64,000 nucleotides of DNA. Origin: Aquabacterium sp. NJ1. GTDB taxonomy: Bacteria > Pseudomonadota > Gammaproteobacteria > Burkholderiales > Burkholderiaceae_C. Shown here piece by piece: positions 31,520 to 39,615 of this stretch; positions within the stretch are counted from its first letter, which is position 1; each line of letters begins with the position of its first letter. The notes beneath the pieces are model-generated. The model saw only the letters and a list, made by a program, of their open reading frames with translations. It searched no databases and had not been told where the DNA came from. The stretch is from positions 3,888,001 to 3,952,000 of the forward strand of contig NZ_JRKM01000001.1 in assembly GCF_000768065.1 (NCBI RefSeq), given 5' to 3'. A program made the position numbers and the translations under genes.

Positions 31520-32470
31520 TCAGTTGCTGGCCGCCAGGAAGGCGAGGAACACCTTCAGCGTGGCCTGCGGGTCTTCTTCCTGGGGCAGGTGGCCCAGCCC
31601 GGGGAAGGTGGTGAGCTGGCAGTGCGGGATGTCCCGGCAGAACAGGTTGCCCTGGTCGGGCGAGATCATCTCGTCTTTCTCGCCCCACATGACCAGTGTG
31701 GGTTGCTGCACCCGGTGGATCAGCGCTGAGTTGCTGCCGAACTGCGCCTGGTCCATGCGCTGGAACAGGGCGCGGCGGTTGCCCACGCGCAGGTTCAGCT
31801 CGAAATAGCGGTCGACCTTCTCTTTGGTGGCGTGGGCCGGGTCACCGAACACGCTGCGCACGCTGGACTCGACGAGCGAGCGCGGCAGGATGCGTTCGGA
31901 CACCCAGCGCAGCCCGCGCATGCTGGCGATCTGGAAGGCCAGCGGCATGGACAGCACGGAGGGCTGGTAGCCGTCCGAGTCGATCAGCACCAGCTTGCGC
32001 ACGCGCTCGGGTGCCAGCACGGCCGTTTGCCAGGCCACTTCGCCGCCCAGGGCGTTGCCCACCAGGATCACGCGCTTGACGTTGAGCGTGTCCAGAAACC
32101 GCAGCACGAAGCGCACATAGGCGTCGATGCGGTAGTCGCCCTGGGGGCTGGGGCCGGTCAGGCCGAAGCCGGGCAGGTCCACGCTGATGACACGGTGTTT
32201 GGCCTGCAGTGCGGTCTGCCAGCCTTCGTAGGTGTGCAGGCTGGACGACATGCCGTGCAGCAGCACGATGGGCAGGTTGTCCTCGCGCGGGCCGGTGTCC
32301 CGCATGTGCACCTGCATGCCGTCGAGCTCGACGAAGCTGGAGGGCTCGGGCGCCCAGCGCCCCACCAGTTGCCCCAGTTGCCGGTCAGGCTCCCAGGTCG
32401 ACCAGACAGCCACAGCCAGGCCGATCCCCAGCAGGACGGCACTCCACCAAAGTCGGTTCAGCCACTTCAT
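31520..32470 (-). CDS. Alpha/beta hydrolase-fold protein lacking the catalytic Ser
   Basis: The 316-residue protein has an N-terminal membrane anchor (WWSAVLLGIGLAVAVW), an oxyanion loop PIVLLHGMSSS, and late Asp266 (MWGEKDEM) and His294 (GLGHLPQEE). The nucleophile elbow reads VGNALGG, so residue 140 is Ala (codon GCC at 32051-32053) where G-x-S-x-G hydrolases have Ser. This predicts a dead or altered enzyme, such as a chaperone-like or ligand-binding protein. It ends the monooxygenase operon, 7 bp after the SDR gene. Confidence 0.88.
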   Translation of the reverse strand: MKWLNRLWWSAVLLGIGLAVAVWSTWEPDRQLGQLVGRWAPEPSSFVELDGMQVHMRDTGPREDNLPIVLLHGMSSSLHTYEGWQTALQAKHRVISVDLPGFGLTGPSPQGDYRIDAYVRFVLRFLDTLNVKRVILVGNALGGEVAWQTAVLAPERVRKLVLIDSDGYQPSVLSMPLAFQIASMRGLRWVSERILPRSLVESSVRSVFGDPAHATKEKVDRYFELNLRVGNRRALFQRMDQAQFGSNSALIHRVQQPTLVMWGEKDEMISPDQGNLFCRDIPHCQLTTFPGLGHLPQEEDPQATLKVFLAFLAASN

Positions 32471-32477
32471 GCGCGCA

Positions 32478-33344
32478 TCATGCCGCGCTTCGGGCCGGTT
32501 GACGCGGCTTGTTCATCTTGCGCAACTGTTTCATCACCAGCACCTGGTAGGCCGAGCCGAACAGGCGGATCACCTTGTCGAGCTTCTTGGCGTCGTTGCC
32601 GACCAGCACGCGGCGCTCGTTGTTTTCAACGGCCTGCAGGATCTGCAGCGCGGCCGATTCGGCGGTGGTCACGTTGATCAGCTTGTTGGCGCGGCGCTTG
32701 TGGGCGTCCACGCTCTGGCCGGTGAGCTTTTCCATGACCGGGTCCACCTTGCCGGCGTTCGCGATGTTGGTGGCGATGCCGCCCGGGTGCACACAGGTGG
32801 CGCTCACGCAGGCGCCTTCCATGTCCAACTCCATGCGCAGGGCCTCGGTGAAGCCGCGCACGCCGAACTTGCTGGCGTTGTAGGCGCTTTGCGTGGGCAC
32901 GGCCATCAGGCCGAACAGGCTGGAGGTGTTGATGACATGGCCTTCGCCCGACGCTTTGAGGTGCGGCAGGAAGGCCTGGGTGCCATACACCACGCCCCAG
33001 AAGTTGATGCCCATGATCCACTCGAAGTCGCTGATCTTCATGTGCTCGACGGGGGCGGTCAGCGCCACGCCGGCGTTGTTGAAGATCAGGTTGACCTTGC
33101 CGTGGTCGCGCACGACTTCGTCGGCCCAGGCGTAGACCTCGTCGCGCTTGGAGACATCCAGCTTGCGCACGGTGACGCGCACGCCATGCTGGCTGGCCAG
33201 TTCGGCCGTCTTGACCAGCTCGGCGTCGTTGACGTCGCTGATGGCCAGATTGCAGCCGCGACGGGCCAGCTCGACGGCCAGCGTGCGGCCCATGCCGGAT
33301 GCGGCGCCGGTGATGGCCGCGACCTTGTTCTTGAAGTCTTTCAT
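32478..33344 (-). CDS. SDR-family oxidoreductase
   Basis: The 288-residue protein has the NAD(P) motif VAAITGAASGMGRTLAVELA (TGxxxGxG), NNAG at about 88 and the active Ser-Tyr-Lys set (NTSSLF ... SAYNASKFG). It should interconvert a secondary alcohol and a ketone. The ATG at 33344 follows a GAGGAAG site. It lies 23 bp after the HSL esterase gene and probably acts in the same pathway. Confidence 0.93.
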   Translation of the reverse strand: MKDFKNKVAAITGAASGMGRTLAVELARRGCNLAISDVNDAELVKTAELASQHGVRVTVRKLDVSKRDEVYAWADEVVRDHGKVNLIFNNAGVALTAPVEHMKISDFEWIMGINFWGVVYGTQAFLPHLKASGEGHVINTSSLFGLMAVPTQSAYNASKFGVRGFTEALRMELDMEGACVSATCVHPGGIATNIANAGKVDPVMEKLTGQSVDAHKRRANKLINVTTAESAALQILQAVENNERRVLVGNDAKKLDKVIRLFGSAYQVLVMKQLRKMNKPRQPARSAA

Positions 33345-33367: not shown

Positions 33368-34282
33368 TTAAGCGGTCACGCGGGCTGTCACGTTGGTGAT
33401 AAAGGCGCCGCATTCTTTCAGGGTCTGGCGGGCTTCGGGCAGCATGAGCATGGTGGGCCACACGTGGGGCATCTTGGCCTTGAGGTGCAGCTCGCTCTTG
33501 ACGCCTTGTTGCTGCGCGCGTTCATGCAGGCGGGTCGAGTCAGCCAGCAGGATCTCGTGCTTGCTGGCGTGGATCATCAGGGGTGGCAGGCCCTTGAGGT
33601 CGGCAAACAGGGGCGAAGCCAGCGGCGTGGTGGTGGGCTTGCCGTTGAGGTAGAGCGCTGCAGCTTCGGGCAGGGACTCGGGGTTGAACATCACGTCCGC
33701 ATCGGCCAGGGACTTCATGGTCTCGCCCGAGCAGGACAGGTCGCTCCAGGGCGAGAACAGTACGGCGCCTGCGGGCATGGGCAGGCCCTGGTCACGCGAA
33801 GCCACCAGGCAGGCCAGGGCCAGGCCACCACCGGCCGAGTCACCACCGAAGACCACGCTCTTGGGGTCGATGCCCTTGTTCAAGAGCTCTTTCCACCAGG
33901 CCACGGCGTCGTCCACGGCAGCGGGGAAAACGTTTTCGGGCGCCATGCGGTAGTCCACCGACAGCACCTGGGCTTCGGCGGTGCGCGCCAGGTAGGCACA
34001 GGTCGGGCGGTGGGTTTCCAGGCCGCAGAAGAAGTAGCCGCCACCATGGAAGTACAGCACCGTGCGCTTCGGGTTGGCCACACTCAACCACTCGGCCGAG
34101 CACAGGGCGCTGGCCGGTTGCGCCGCCACGGGCGTGTGCTTGATTTCGGGCGGCGGGGGCGGGTAGCGCTTGGCCATCTTGTTGACCATGTGGCGTGCCT
34201 TGTGCACGTTCAATGGCCCACGCCCTGCGCGCTTGAACTGGTAACGCAGGACCATGTTGGCGATGACGGATTGAATGCTCAT
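33368..34282 (-). CDS. HSL-family (HGGG) esterase
   Basis: The 304-residue alpha/beta hydrolase has the oxyanion motif YFHGGGYFF (HGGG 79-82) and the nucleophile motif FGGDSAGGG (Ser149), then a Asp/His pair near PPLMIHASKHE and PHVWPTML. It should hydrolyse esters, and so could split the product of the monooxygenase. Its ATG overlaps that gene's stop (34279-34282). Confidence 0.92.
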   Translation of the reverse strand: MSIQSVIANMVLRYQFKRAGRGPLNVHKARHMVNKMAKRYPPPPPEIKHTPVAAQPASALCSAEWLSVANPKRTVLYFHGGGYFFCGLETHRPTCAYLARTAEAQVLSVDYRMAPENVFPAAVDDAVAWWKELLNKGIDPKSVVFGGDSAGGGLALACLVASRDQGLPMPAGAVLFSPWSDLSCSGETMKSLADADVMFNPESLPEAAALYLNGKPTTTPLASPLFADLKGLPPLMIHASKHEILLADSTRLHERAQQQGVKSELHLKAKMPHVWPTMLMLPEARQTLKECGAFITNVTARVTA

Positions 34283-35781
34283 GCGCGCTCTGTGAAGTAG
34301 GGGTTGAGGTTGAAACGGCGGGTTTTCAAACGGTAGGCAAATGTAAACCCTGGCCACAGCGTCGTGTTGCGGCCCTTGTCGTCGATGTACCAGCTCTTGC
34401 AGCCGGAGTTCCACACGGTTTTCTTCAGGTCGGCCTGCACATCGGCCACGAAGCGGGCCTGCGCCTGGGGTTTGACTTCCAGGGCCTTGATGCGGCGCTC
34501 TTTCATGGTCTTGAGCGCCTCGACGATGTAATGCGCCTGCGACTCGATCATGAACACCATGGAGTTGTGGCCCAGGCCCGTGTTGGGGCCCATCAGCATG
34601 AAGAAGTTGGGGAAGCCTGCCACGGTGATGCCCATATAGGCCTCGGCGCCTTGCTTCCACACCTCGGCCAGATCGGCGCCACCCTTGCCGAACACGGCCT
34701 TGGGCGGGATCGGGTCCTGCACCTTGAAGCCGGTGCCGAAGATGATGGCGTCCACCTCGTGCTCGCGGCCATCTTGCGTGCGCACGCCGCGTGGCGTGAT
34801 GGCCTGGATGCCCTCGGTGACGACCTCGACATTGGTGCGCGCCAGGGCAGGGTAGTACTCGTTGGAAATCAGCAGGCGCTTGCAGCCGGGCGTGTAGTCG
34901 GGCGTGAGCTTGGCGCGCAGGGCCGGATCCTTGATGGCCTTGTTGATGCGGTGCTTGCCCACCTTTGCCACCAGCTTCATCCACTCGGGCTTGAACTTGA
35001 AGGCCAGGAAGCGCATCTCCAGCGTCCAGTACAGCTTGGTGCGGGCGATCTTCTGGCGCCAGGGGTTGGCGTTGAAGTCGGCCTTTTCTTCGGGTTTGAT
35101 GGGGCGGTCCATCTTGGGCACGACCCAGGGCGGGGTGCGCTGGAAGTAGGTGAGGTGGTCCACCTTGGGGGCAATCGCCGGCACGAACTGGATGGCGCTG
35201 GCGCCGCTGCCGATCACGGCCACGCGCTTGCCCGTCAGGTCGTAATCGTGGCGCCAGGTGGCGGAATGGAAGGTGGTGCCCTCGAAGCTGTCCAGGCCCT
35301 TGATGCTGGGGATGGCCGGGTTGCTCAGTCCGCCCATGCCGGAGACCAGCACATCGGCTTCGAACACGCGGCCGTCGTCCGCCTTGACGACCCAGACCTG
35401 GCGCGCTTCGTCATAGCGCGAGGCCGTGATGTTGGCGCCAAAGCGGATGTGGCGCAGCAGGTCGTACTTGGTGGCGACGTGCTTCAGGTACGCGTAAATC
35501 TCGGGCTGGGGCGCGTACATGCGCGACCAGTTGGGGTTGGGCTCGAACGAGAAGGAGTAGAGGTGGGACTCCACGTCGCAGGCGCAACCGGGGTAAGTGT
35601 TGTCGCGCCAGGTGCCACCCACGTCATGGGCACGCTCCAGCAGCACGAAGTCGTCCTCGCCGTTTTCACGGAGTTTGACACCCATGCACAGGCCCGAAAA
35701 TCCCGTGCCCACGACGATGATGCGGTGCCGCTCCACCCCCTGGCCGGCGGCAAGCGGCTGCTTGAATTCATTCGGCTTCAT
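34279..35781 (-). CDS. Flavin-containing Baeyer-Villiger-type monooxygenase
   Basis: The 500-residue protein has the FAD motif VVGTGFSG (25-30 GxGxxG), the BVMO fingerprint FEGTTFHSATW (166-176, FxGxxxHxxxW), a second NADPH-binding GSGASA (191-196) and GTGFKVQDP near the end. Enzymes of this type insert oxygen into ketones using NADPH and O2, or hydroxylate alkanes (AlmA-like). It starts a four-gene operon: monooxygenase, esterase, SDR, dead hydrolase. Confidence 0.93.
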   Translation of the reverse strand: MKPNEFKQPLAAGQGVERHRIIVVGTGFSGLCMGVKLRENGEDDFVLLERAHDVGGTWRDNTYPGCACDVESHLYSFSFEPNPNWSRMYAPQPEIYAYLKHVATKYDLLRHIRFGANITASRYDEARQVWVVKADDGRVFEADVLVSGMGGLSNPAIPSIKGLDSFEGTTFHSATWRHDYDLTGKRVAVIGSGASAIQFVPAIAPKVDHLTYFQRTPPWVVPKMDRPIKPEEKADFNANPWRQKIARTKLYWTLEMRFLAFKFKPEWMKLVAKVGKHRINKAIKDPALRAKLTPDYTPGCKRLLISNEYYPALARTNVEVVTEGIQAITPRGVRTQDGREHEVDAIIFGTGFKVQDPIPPKAVFGKGGADLAEVWKQGAEAYMGITVAGFPNFFMLMGPNTGLGHNSMVFMIESQAHYIVEALKTMKERRIKALEVKPQAQARFVADVQADLKKTVWNSGCKSWYIDDKGRNTTLWPGFTFAYRLKTRRFNLNPYFTERA

Positions 35782-35812
35782 ACGGAGATCTTTCTGAAAG
35801 CACTTTGATTTG

Positions 35813-35857
35813 TGACAAGAATTATTGTCAGACTAACTTTGACAATGATTCATGTCA
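35813..35857. promoter_or_regulatory. Two TGACA-N8-TGTCA operators
   Basis: Identical half-site pairs TGACA-N8-TGTCA occur at 35813-35830 and 35840-35857, centres 27 bp apart, in the gap between the monooxygenase operon and the divergent tetR gene. The second carries an extra T/A on each side. They are the probable TetR operators. Confidence 0.7.
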
Positions 35858-35871
35858 ATATAGGGATCCCT

Positions 35872-36549
35872 ATGGACGCAGCAATTTCCGACTCATCCCC
35901 CCCGAACAAGCGCCGTTATGGCGGTGTCTTGCCCGAAGAGCGCCAGCGCCTGCGGCGAGCCAAGCTCATCGACGGCGCGCTGGAGGTGTTCGGGACGAAA
36001 GGCTTCCACGCCACGACGGTGCGCGAGGTGTGCGTGGCTGCGCACCTGACGGAGCGTTACTTCTACGAGTCCTTCAAGACGCTGCCGCAGCTGTTTCTGG
36101 CCACTTACGCCGAATTGCGCGAGCAGTTGATGGCCTTGACGCTGGCCTCGCTCAAGCAGGCCGAGCCCACGCCGCTGGGCATGCTGGAGCCCGCCATGCG
36201 CGTGTTCCTGGAGTTCATCCGCGACGACCCACGCCGGGGCCGCGTGATGCTGGTGGATTCGCTGGGCGTGAACGACGAGGTGGCCGCCTTGAGTGGCGCC
36301 ACGGCGCGCGACTACTCGGCCATGATGCGCCAGCACCTGCACCTGCTGGTGCCCAAGGGCCGCGCCGCCGAGATCAACCTGGACTTGCTGGCCGACGGCA
36401 TGATCGGCCTGAACGTGCTGCTGGCCTCACGCTGGATGCAGGACGGCTTCAAGGAACCGATCGACAAGGTCGTCAAGACCAACTTGTTGCCGTATCAGGG
36501 CTTGCTGGCGCTCGTGGACCACGAACCCAAGGCCCCCAAAGCGGGCTGA
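35872..36549 (+). CDS. TetR-family transcriptional regulator
   Basis: The 225-residue regulator has an HTH at about 30-70: LEVFGTKGFHATTVREVCVAA followed by HLTERYFYESF. The C-terminal ligand domain is typical of TetR. The ATG at 35872 is preferred over an upstream frame start because the operators lie in that extension. It is divergent from the monooxygenase operon and probably represses it. Confidence 0.93.
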   Translation: MDAAISDSSPPNKRRYGGVLPEERQRLRRAKLIDGALEVFGTKGFHATTVREVCVAAHLTERYFYESFKTLPQLFLATYAELREQLMALTLASLKQAEPTPLGMLEPAMRVFLEFIRDDPRRGRVMLVDSLGVNDEVAALSGATARDYSAMMRQHLHLLVPKGRAAEINLDLLADGMIGLNVLLASRWMQDGFKEPIDKVVKTNLLPYQGLLALVDHEPKAPKAG

Positions 36550-37185: not shown

Positions 37186-38418
37186 TCAGGCCTGCTTGAG
37201 CGCGGGCTGGGCCGCCTGGCTGGCCTGAGCGGTGGCCGAGTCGGTCAAACCAAAGCGGCGCATCAGCATCGCGCGCTTGGCGGGCAGGAAGTTGATGCGG
37301 TTCGCATCGCCACCGACGGCCTGGATCACGCGCTTGTCCATGATGGCGAACCACAGTGGCGGCACATAGGCAGCCAGGAACATGCCGAAGTAGCCGGAAG
37401 GCAGTGTGGGCAGCTCGGGGAAGTTGCGCAGCGACTGGTAGCTGCGGGTCGGGTTGGCGTGGTGATCCGAGTGGCGCTGCAGGTGGAACACGATCAGGTT
37501 GGACACGATGTGGTTGCTGTTCCACGAGTGGTGCGGCTGGCAGTGTTCATAGCGGCCATCGGCCTTCTTCTGGCGCAGCAGGCCGTAGTGCTCGATGTAG
37601 TTGGCCGAGGTCAGCTGGAAGGCGCCCCAGAAGGCCACGATGGCCAGGATGGGCACCATCTTCGGGCCGAAGGCCGCGATCAGGCCACCGTACAGCAGGG
37701 CCGTGACCAGGCCGGCTTGCAGGATCTCGTTGTCCAGGCTCCAGACCGACTTGCCGACGCGGTCCAGGCGTTCCGTTTCCAGATCCCAGGCGCGGAAGTA
37801 GGCGCCGGGCAGCTCGCGGAACATGAAGCGGTAGATGCTCTCGCCCATCTTGGAGGATGCGGGGTCTTCGGGCGTGGCCACATGGCGGTGGTGGCCGCGG
37901 TTGTGCTCGATCGAGAAGTGACCATAACCACCCAGCGCCGAGTTGAACAGGCCCATCTTGCGGCCGATCCAGTCCTTCTTGTGGCCCAACTCGTGGCTGA
38001 GGTTCAGGCCAAAGCCCAGCATGGAGCCGGTGATCACGGTGGTGGCCAGCCATTCATACCAGGCCAGGTCGTGTGTGGCCAGGAACACCACGTTGAACAA
38101 CAGGCTGCCCCACAGCACGGGCACCACGAGGTAGTTGATCCAGCGGTAGTAGCCATCGGCTTCCAGGCGCGGCACGGCGCCCTCGGGCGGGTTGCTCAGG
38201 TCCTCGCCCATGATGTAGTCGAGCAGGGGCACGCCCAGGTAGATCGCGATCATGCTGGCAAAGAACCACATGGGGTGGGTGTGGCCGTTCAGGTAGGCCA
38301 CAGGGCCCACCACCACGGAAGCCGGCGCGATGACCGACAACAGCCACATGAGCTTCTTGCGGTCGCGGTAGCTGGCGGGGTCTTGTTCTTGTGCAGGAAG
38401 GGGCAGGGTAGCGGGCAT
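37186..38418 (-). CDS. alkB: Alkane 1-monooxygenase
   Basis: The 410-residue membrane diiron enzyme hydroxylates medium-chain n-alkanes at the terminal carbon. The three His boxes are present: LSHELGHKKD (142-146), EHNRGHHRHVATPEDP and LQRHSDHHANP (near 318), plus the AlkB signature NYIEHYGL. About six membrane helices. No rubredoxin or rubredoxin reductase gene lies in the window, although AlkB needs them for electrons. It is divergent from an AraC regulator. Confidence 0.96.
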   Translation of the reverse strand: MPATLPLPAQEQDPASYRDRKKLMWLLSVIAPASVVVGPVAYLNGHTHPMWFFASMIAIYLGVPLLDYIMGEDLSNPPEGAVPRLEADGYYRWINYLVVPVLWGSLLFNVVFLATHDLAWYEWLATTVITGSMLGFGLNLSHELGHKKDWIGRKMGLFNSALGGYGHFSIEHNRGHHRHVATPEDPASSKMGESIYRFMFRELPGAYFRAWDLETERLDRVGKSVWSLDNEILQAGLVTALLYGGLIAAFGPKMVPILAIVAFWGAFQLTSANYIEHYGLLRQKKADGRYEHCQPHHSWNSNHIVSNLIVFHLQRHSDHHANPTRSYQSLRNFPELPTLPSGYFGMFLAAYVPPLWFAIMDKRVIQAVGGDANRINFLPAKRAMLMRRFGLTDSATAQASQAAQPALKQA

Positions 38419-38518: not shown

Positions 38519-38559
38519 ATGCCCGAATGACCTCAACCCGAATGGCATCCAGGATCGAC

Positions 38560-39615
38560 ATGCTTGATGCGCACGCGCCTGCCGACTGGTTGAAGCCCTC
38601 CCTGCACCCCGTCTACGCCCGCCTGATCTGCGCCGAGTTGCGCCGCCGCGGCTTCAGTGAAGACGAGATCCTGCAAGGCACCCGGCTGAACTGGGCCGAG
38701 TTGCATGGCAGCAACCTGTTCCTCAGCTTCGAGCAGACGCGCCGGCTCGTCCTGCGGGCTTTGACCTTGACGCAATGCCCCTGGCTGGGGCTGCAGGTGG
38801 GCCTGAGCACACAGTTGTCCGCGCACGGGGCCTTGGGTTATGCGGCCATGGCGGCCGGCACGGTGGGCGAGGCCATGTTGCTGTTGCAGCGCTTCACCGA
38901 CGTGCGCCTGCGCCTGGCCCGCATGGATGTCGATACGCGTGGTGGCTTTGCCCTGGTGCTCAAGGAGGTGCTGGTGTCTGATGATGTGCGCGAGTACATC
39001 GTCGGGCACATCGCGGCGGCCATGTTGCGCATGTTCGAGACCATCGCCGGTCAGGACATGCGGGGCCGCGTGCGGATTCAGTGGCCCTTCCCCGAGCCGC
39101 CCTGGGGCCAGCACTACCGCGACTTCTGCCCGCAAAGCGAATTCGGCGCCGATCAACTGCGCATGGAGTTGCCGCTGGATGTGTGGGGCAGTCCGGGCAT
39201 CGCGTCCGACCCCGAGGCCTTTCGCACGGCCTTGCGCGACTGCGAACGCCAGCTCAACCAGATCGAGATGGGCACGGTGACGACCCGCGTGCAACGCCGC
39301 CTGTTGGGCTGCGACGGCAGCTACCCGTCGCTGGAGCAGATGGCCGAGCTGGAACATGTGTCCCCGCGCACGCTGATTCGCCATCTGAGCGAAGAGGGCA
39401 TGAGCTACCAGCGCCTGCTGGATGCGGTGCGCGAGGAGCTGGCCTGCTGGCTGCTGGTGCACACCGAGCTGAGCGTGGAGGCCATCGCCGAACGCCTGGG
39501 GTATCAGGACACGTCCAACTTCAGCCGCACGTTTCGGCGCTGGCTGGGTGTCACACCGCGGGATTTTCGGCAAACCCGGGTAGACCACAAGCCACTTGAG
39601 GCTCAATCGGGCTGA
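38560..39615 (+). CDS. AraC-family transcriptional regulator
   Basis: The 351-residue protein has an N-terminal arabinose-binding-like domain and a C-terminal double HTH: SLEQMAELEHVSPRTLIRHLSEEGMSYQRLLDAVREEL and LSVEAIAERLGYQDTSNFSRTFRRWLGVTPRDFR. The ATG at 38560 has an AGGA site; an in-frame ATG at 38527 is the alternative. It likely activates alkB in answer to alkanes. Effector unknown. Confidence 0.92.
   Translation: MLDAHAPADWLKPSLHPVYARLICAELRRRGFSEDEILQGTRLNWAELHGSNLFLSFEQTRRLVLRALTLTQCPWLGLQVGLSTQLSAHGALGYAAMAAGTVGEAMLLLQRFTDVRLRLARMDVDTRGGFALVLKEVLVSDDVREYIVGHIAAAMLRMFETIAGQDMRGRVRIQWPFPEPPWGQHYRDFCPQSEFGADQLRMELPLDVWGSPGIASDPEAFRTALRDCERQLNQIEMGTVTTRVQRRLLGCDGSYPSLEQMAELEHVSPRTLIRHLSEEGMSYQRLLDAVREELACWLLVHTELSVEAIAERLGYQDTSNFSRTFRRWLGVTPRDFRQTRVDHKPLEAQSG

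Follow-up and report, generated by a model that had tools for sequence, protein, structure and literature searches.

A serine-less PlaF-like alpha/beta hydrolase conserved in Aquabacterium, a candidate lipid-binding pseudo-lipase linked to an HSL-type esterase

The 64,000-nucleotide stretch of the Aquabacterium sp. NJ1 genome analyzed here (the window) carries a gene for a PlaF-like alpha/beta-hydrolase protein in which alanine replaces the catalytic serine, and comparison across the genus showed that this alanine is fixed under purifying selection. Our best explanation, held with middling confidence, is that the product is a non-hydrolytic, lipid-binding membrane pseudo-lipase derived from a PlaF-type protein and serving the pathway of the linked HSL-type esterase. 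A survey of the open-licence literature, covering titles and the starts of abstracts, found no paper on this Ala protein, which is not proof of novelty.

The alanine elbow and its conservation

The gene lies at 31520..32470 (coordinates are those of the window, and features are on the minus strand unless stated otherwise), starts with ATG and encodes a 316-aa protein, as judged from its ORF, translation, profile match and predicted model. Its nucleophile elbow reads LVGNALGGEV, with Ala140 (codon GCC, 32051..32053) at the nucleophile position. The match to the Abhydrolase_1 profile (E 5.9e-33), together with the fold, places the protein in the alpha/beta-hydrolase fold superfamily (PF00561/PF12697). 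By the hallmarks of a serine hydrolase, it has lost the nucleophilic Ser of GxSxG (Ala140 in 38/38 orthologues) and kept the triad acid and base, Asp266 (31673..31675) and His294 (31589..31591), which were located by alignments to solved relatives and are, like His72, invariant in the same 38 sequences. Re-reading of the codon and the ORF, in agreement with the 38 orthologues, bore out the initial annotation, which had described Ala in place of the catalytic Ser with Asp266 and His294 retained. The oxyanion loop, also described there as retained, is so for His72-Gly73, invariant in all 38, and not for residue 74 (Met74, 32249..32251), which is Met in 35 and Leu in 3 of the Ala clade vs Thr in 96/97 Ser relatives.

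All 42 Aquabacterium genomes had at least one match to the Ala protein, and 38 of them carried the operon-type orthologue, with Ala at the nucleophile site in every case (38/38), which settles whether Ala is conserved among close homologues. The Ala orthologue was present in 33/33 genomes of at least 90% completeness. The four genomes without the Ala form (G006, G022, G035 and G041) are all less than 90% complete, and its absence from them is therefore no proof of loss; the operon reaches the contig end in G006 and G041, a 79% BVMO fragment does so in G035, and no close BVMO was seen in G022.

Three synonymous codons specify Ala140 among the 38 orthologues (GCC 19, GCG 16, GCA 3), with at least 13 codon changes on the tree, every one silent, and no replacement. 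The dN/dS ratio ranged from 0.02 to 0.15 in the Ala clade (10 pairs) vs 0.11 to 0.23 among the Ser paralogues (5 pairs), and no internal stop codon occurs in the 38 Ala orthologues. A sequencing error or a decaying, functionless gene, for which the lost Ser would be the sole support, is refuted by these orthologue, codon and dN/dS counts; an error in particular, which had been named among the findings that would overturn the initial annotation, is excluded by the 38/38 agreement through three codons.

Relatives and origin of the Ala form

The relatives were placed in a tree of 143 rows, of the "quick" kind with SH-aLRT support only and with 44 of its 138 inner forks open; it omits duplicate-named contig copies (L038-L062), L063, L064, the pattern loci L111-L132, the weak paralogues L004-L008 and matches shorter than 200 residues. 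The comparison set of 97 Ser relatives excludes four outgroup rows (L003, L212, L207 and L208). The 38 Ala rows formed one group (SH-aLRT 92), and its sister (SH-aLRT 94) consisted of two additional gene copies from Aquabacterium in which Gly occupies the nucleophile site. One of these Gly copies, L097:10739-11758 (-) in genome G020, adjoins the TetR gene of the Ala locus and is convergent with it; the other, L100/L251 (G013:C278:3300-4235), has also lost the oxyanion His, replaced by Pro.

Among the 82 Aquabacterium matches, 38 had Ala, 2 Gly and 19 Ser, the remaining 23 being unread paralogue places of 49-54% identity; hence, all 19 same-genus paralogues read had Ser. Beyond the genus, the 80 places of the family (299 genomes, E <= 1e-75) comprised 78 with Ser and 2 with Gly. 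Ser was likewise found in 22/22 non-own places of the order (300 genomes, E <= 1e-60; one place shared with the family set), in 8/8 of the class (369 genomes, E <= 1e-60), in all 5 records read of the 13 matched plasmids, and in the single viral contig place (1/1). The Ala form was not seen outside Aquabacterium in the family, order, class, plasmid and viral places read, where the family, order and class searches scored the best few candidates per genome and larger groups were sampled.

The two Gly exceptions in the family (L183 and L185, genomes G115 and G219) belong to another genus, read LVGQGLGAQL and represent a separate Ser-to-Gly loss in the tree; in L167, from a third genome of the same genus, Ser is retained. 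We also considered the Ala elbow as a wider motif and rejected it: the GNALGGE pattern occurred in 22/399 family genomes, at one place each (a control pattern occurred in 5 genomes), and 6 of these places were the real elbows of Aquabacterium, the other 16 having no tblastn match and lying, by eye, in unrelated frames. On plasmid pAER57, a Ser relative (L264:1549-3930) lies inside an annotated aldehyde dehydrogenase gene, to which it may be fused, and a GMC oxidoreductase gene precedes it.

In Rivibacter (G148), the BVMO, HSL and SDR genes are present and the Ala-type gene is absent beside them. The simplest history suggested by these comparisons would be a duplication, inside Aquabacterium, of a PlaF-like alpha/beta hydrolase anchored in the inner membrane; the duplicate would have joined a TetR-controlled esterase operon there and had its Ser nucleophile swapped for Ala.

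Predicted structure and membrane topology

The AlphaFold2 model of the Ala protein (pLDDT 94.4) comprises helices at residues 2-25 and 32-39, lid helices and a hydrolase core. The first is a predicted N-terminal membrane helix (32396..32467) and the second a juxtamembrane helix (32354..32377), followed by a lid-like region at residues 165-247 (31730..31978), with bounds set by hand around model helices 177-241. The top Foldseek match was PlaF (PA2949, PDB 6i8w), a cytoplasmic-membrane phospholipase A1 of Pseudomonas aeruginosa, at 21% identity and an rmsd of 8.5 A. VIA-align placed C-C hydrolases first and gave PlaF a Z of 32.1 over residues 31-316, the membrane helix being left out; compared with 1j1i, the model had a Z of 34.3 and an rmsd of 1.8 over 250 residues. 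The hydrolase core of the model alone would not single out PlaF; the predicted membrane anchor does.

PlaF is described as having a domain that extends into the periplasm and a cleft occupied by fatty acids, and as dimerising through its TM-JM helices to a less active form (PMC9132575). The Ala protein resembles it in the membrane helix, juxtamembrane helix, lid and core of the predicted model, and in Asp266 and His294, which correspond to PlaF Asp258 and His286. It differs, beyond the identity and rmsd given above, in lacking the catalytic Ser: PlaF is an active phospholipase with Ser137, and the residue here is Ala140. A membrane anchor had been one of the roles offered in the initial annotation, and the predicted helix 2-25 and the PlaF-like plan of the model speak for it.

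Lys2 and Arg6 (often with Lys5) precede the membrane helix and Glu27 and Asp29 follow it; Lys2 is found in only 17 of the 38 Ala rows, though Arg6 is found in 36. A pair of Cys specific to the clade, Cys278 (31637..31639) and Cys284 (31619..31621), occurs together in 36/38 Ala rows, both being absent from the two earliest-branching ones (L097 and L098), and neither site has Cys in any of 101 Ser rows. No Cys occurs anywhere in 89/101 Ser rows, whereas HSL and BVMO each hold 3-7 Cys in the portions aligned. Judging from the charges, assigned by eye, and from this Cys pattern, the N-terminus is probably inside and the domain outside, facing the periplasm.

The own genome also encodes a Ser paralogue (L002, 54% identity) of near-equal length, with the Asp and His and the same predicted plan (pLDDT 95.8). 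It differs from the Ala protein in Ser140, Thr74 and the lack of the Cys pair, and its neighbors, labelled by eye, are a phosphotransferase, a histidine phosphatase and another SDR. The Ala protein might then act as a dominant negative, forming mixed dimers with the active Ser paralogue via the membrane helix. Such a role would recall the PlaF homodimers, whose contact through the TM-JM helices goes with lower activity in the portion of the PlaF report at hand (PMC9132575), and all 38 Ala rows share Gln31 and Gly33 near the juxtamembrane helix, two residues that none of the 97 Ser relatives has at these sites. However, two genomes of 99% completeness that carry the Ala form (G027 and G028) yielded no further match at E <= 1e-20, so mixed dimers cannot be the general mechanism, and the Ser paralogue is located elsewhere, among other neighbors. 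We regard this explanation as very improbable.

Residue changes peculiar to the Ala clade

By the cut-offs chosen here, 29 sites differ between the Ala clade and the 97 Ser relatives. Their concentration in the membrane and juxtamembrane part (7/29, uncorrected p 0.06) and in the lid (12/29, uncorrected p 0.05) is weak. At residue 166 (Asp166, 31973..31975), 36 of the 38 Ala rows have Asp and the other 2 have Asn, vs Asp in 1/97 Ser relatives. With the Cys pair, this points to a stepwise record within the clade, in which Ala would have come first and the Cys pair and Asp166 later.

C-C hydrolases of the alpha/beta-hydrolase fold are known to retain a partial reaction without Ser, and proteins of this fold may keep some chemistry when Ser is lost. 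The main rival of the pseudo-lipase reading is a re-tooled enzyme with Ser-free chemistry, for example with His294-Asp266 as a general base aided by Asp/Asn166; we consider it unlikely, if the foremost of the alternatives. It would account for the invariance of Asp266 and His294 (38/38) and for Asp or Asn at residue 166 throughout the clade, beside the vacated nucleophile site. The residue aligns with PlaF Ala163, and Ser137 of PlaF hydrogen-bonds Ile160, Asp161 and Ala163 in the available text of the PlaF study (PMC9132575). On the other hand, distant Ser relatives share Asp166 (L259 and L266, PDG) and also Met74 (L228, HGM), and for that reason neither residue alone signals lost hydrolysis. 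Moreover, oxyanion-loop residue 74 has turned to Met or Leu, no candidate for a new nucleophile was seen among the sites that differ in the clade, and His and Asp may persist for folding or for the polarity of the ligand site.

The operon and its constant esterase partner

The Ala gene is the last of an operon in the order BVMO-type, HSL-type esterase, SDR and Ala gene, as the initial annotation had it, and re-examination of the neighbors confirmed their types. The flavin monooxygenase of BVMO type (34279..35781) carries FEGTTFHSATW; the HSL-type esterase (33368..34282, GDSAG), with its start taken at an internal ATG, overlaps the end of the BVMO gene by 4 nt; and the SDR (32478..33344), whose start was likewise assigned to an ATG inside the ORF as listed, lies 7 nt from the Ala gene. 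A TetR regulator (35812..36549, plus strand) is divergent from the monooxygenase. Close to the operon, the window also holds a gene for a fatty-acid-desaturase-family protein, AlkB-like by eye (37186-38418, minus strand), and an AraC-type regulator (38527-39615, plus strand); an AlkB-like gene is also close to the operon in several other Aquabacterium loci.

The loci were picked through the Ala gene, so that its retention there follows from how they were chosen, unlike its presence in the 33/33 genomes of at least 90% completeness. HSL was adjacent to the Ala gene or one gene away in 37/37 testable loci (L053 is cut), and no loss of HSL was seen in any of them. The SDR was missing in 3/38 loci (L061, L239 and L240), through one loss on the tree, and the BVMO in 7/37 testable loci (the same three, L042, L059, L237 and L238), through at least 4 losses. 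The emphasis previously placed on the monooxygenase is not supported by these counts, and the label "monooxygenase operon" is misleading on this gene-content comparison: with HSL constant and BVMO repeatedly lost, the esterase and not the monooxygenase is the link to pursue. Overall, the initial interpretation finds support in part, with its focus shifted to the esterase.

Additional copies or pairings of these genes were noted at several loci. In G020, a second HSL-like gene (L097:7139-8146, minus strand) lies between the operon HSL and BVMO, and in G013 an HSL-like match (L250:1718-2536, minus strand) lies beyond TetR. Elsewhere in the own genome (L212, G000:C1:4730864-4743303), a different BVMO has as its neighbor a distantly related alpha/beta hydrolase of Ser type (GNSMGG), and L207 and L208 (genomes G208 and G285, of another genus) show a pairing similar to this one.

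The mycobacterial mymA operon combines a BVMO, an esterase and an SDR; it was considered as a parallel and not adopted. For 2-ketone degradation in Acinetobacter, the available portion of a recent report proposes the order ketone, ester, alcohol (PMC12753306), with which an operon encoding BVMO, HSL esterase and SDR would fit. No Ser-less membrane hydrolase is named in that portion of the report (PMC12753306).

The constancy of HSL also allows a direct partnership, in which the Ala protein would act on the esterase as the human ABHD5/CGI-58, a co-activator without nucleophile, acts on a lipase. In the text available, ABHD5 has no nucleophile, a Trp-rich N-terminal anchor and a likely lipid cavity, and co-activates PNPLA2 (PMC12871566). 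Compared by that description, both proteins have an alpha/beta-hydrolase-like fold without nucleophile (Ala140 here) and a Trp-rich anchor, with W3 in 36 and W8 and W9 in 34 each of the 38 Ala rows, and the occurrence of HSL at every testable locus, despite the BVMO and SDR losses, would suit a contact partner. However, the site of action of ABHD5 is the lipid droplet and its partners are patatin-type lipases, compared with a probably periplasmic domain and a linked HSL-type esterase here. A domain in the periplasm would make direct contact with a cytosolic HSL unlikely, and HSL showed no export signal by eye and has 3-7 Cys. Furthermore, the model shows the N-terminal part of the Ala protein as a membrane helix of full length. 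We therefore rate such a contact as rather improbable. To the same low degree we credit a broader idea, that the Ala protein and HSL are the bacterial equivalent of ABHD5 and its lipase: a nucleophile-less, membrane-anchored protein descended from a PlaF-type lipase would sense a fatty ligand for a dedicated HSL or bring it to that esterase, with monooxygenase and SDR optional. The HSL link could also reflect shared regulation alone.

Proposed role and significance

Selection maintains the sequence together with His and Asp, yet an acyl-enzyme should be impossible on Ala140; a non-hydrolytic binder is the best reading, for which the nucleophile-less ABHD5/CGI-58 is a precedent. In this pseudo-lipase, the domain would sit at the periplasmic (outer) face of the inner membrane, where a Cys278-Cys284 disulfide may form, and its cleft would still accept a fatty acid, an ester or a similar ligand. 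By capturing this ligand or passing it on, the protein would serve the pathway in which the intracellular HSL acts, along with the BVMO and SDR where those genes occur.

Pseudo-hydrolases are known in animals, such as ABHD5 and DPP10. A bacterial one that is kept genus-wide, with an active-looking Ser relative in the same genome, offers a clean case for asking why a dead lipase is kept. A ready genetic test is offered by the stepwise residue record, by a Ser paralogue that can act as internal control and by the loci that have naturally lost BVMO and SDR. If the link to HSL is true, it would bear on how esters are handled at the inner membrane of hydrocarbon- and lipid-degrading bacteria, and would caution against annotating every protein with this profile as a hydrolase.
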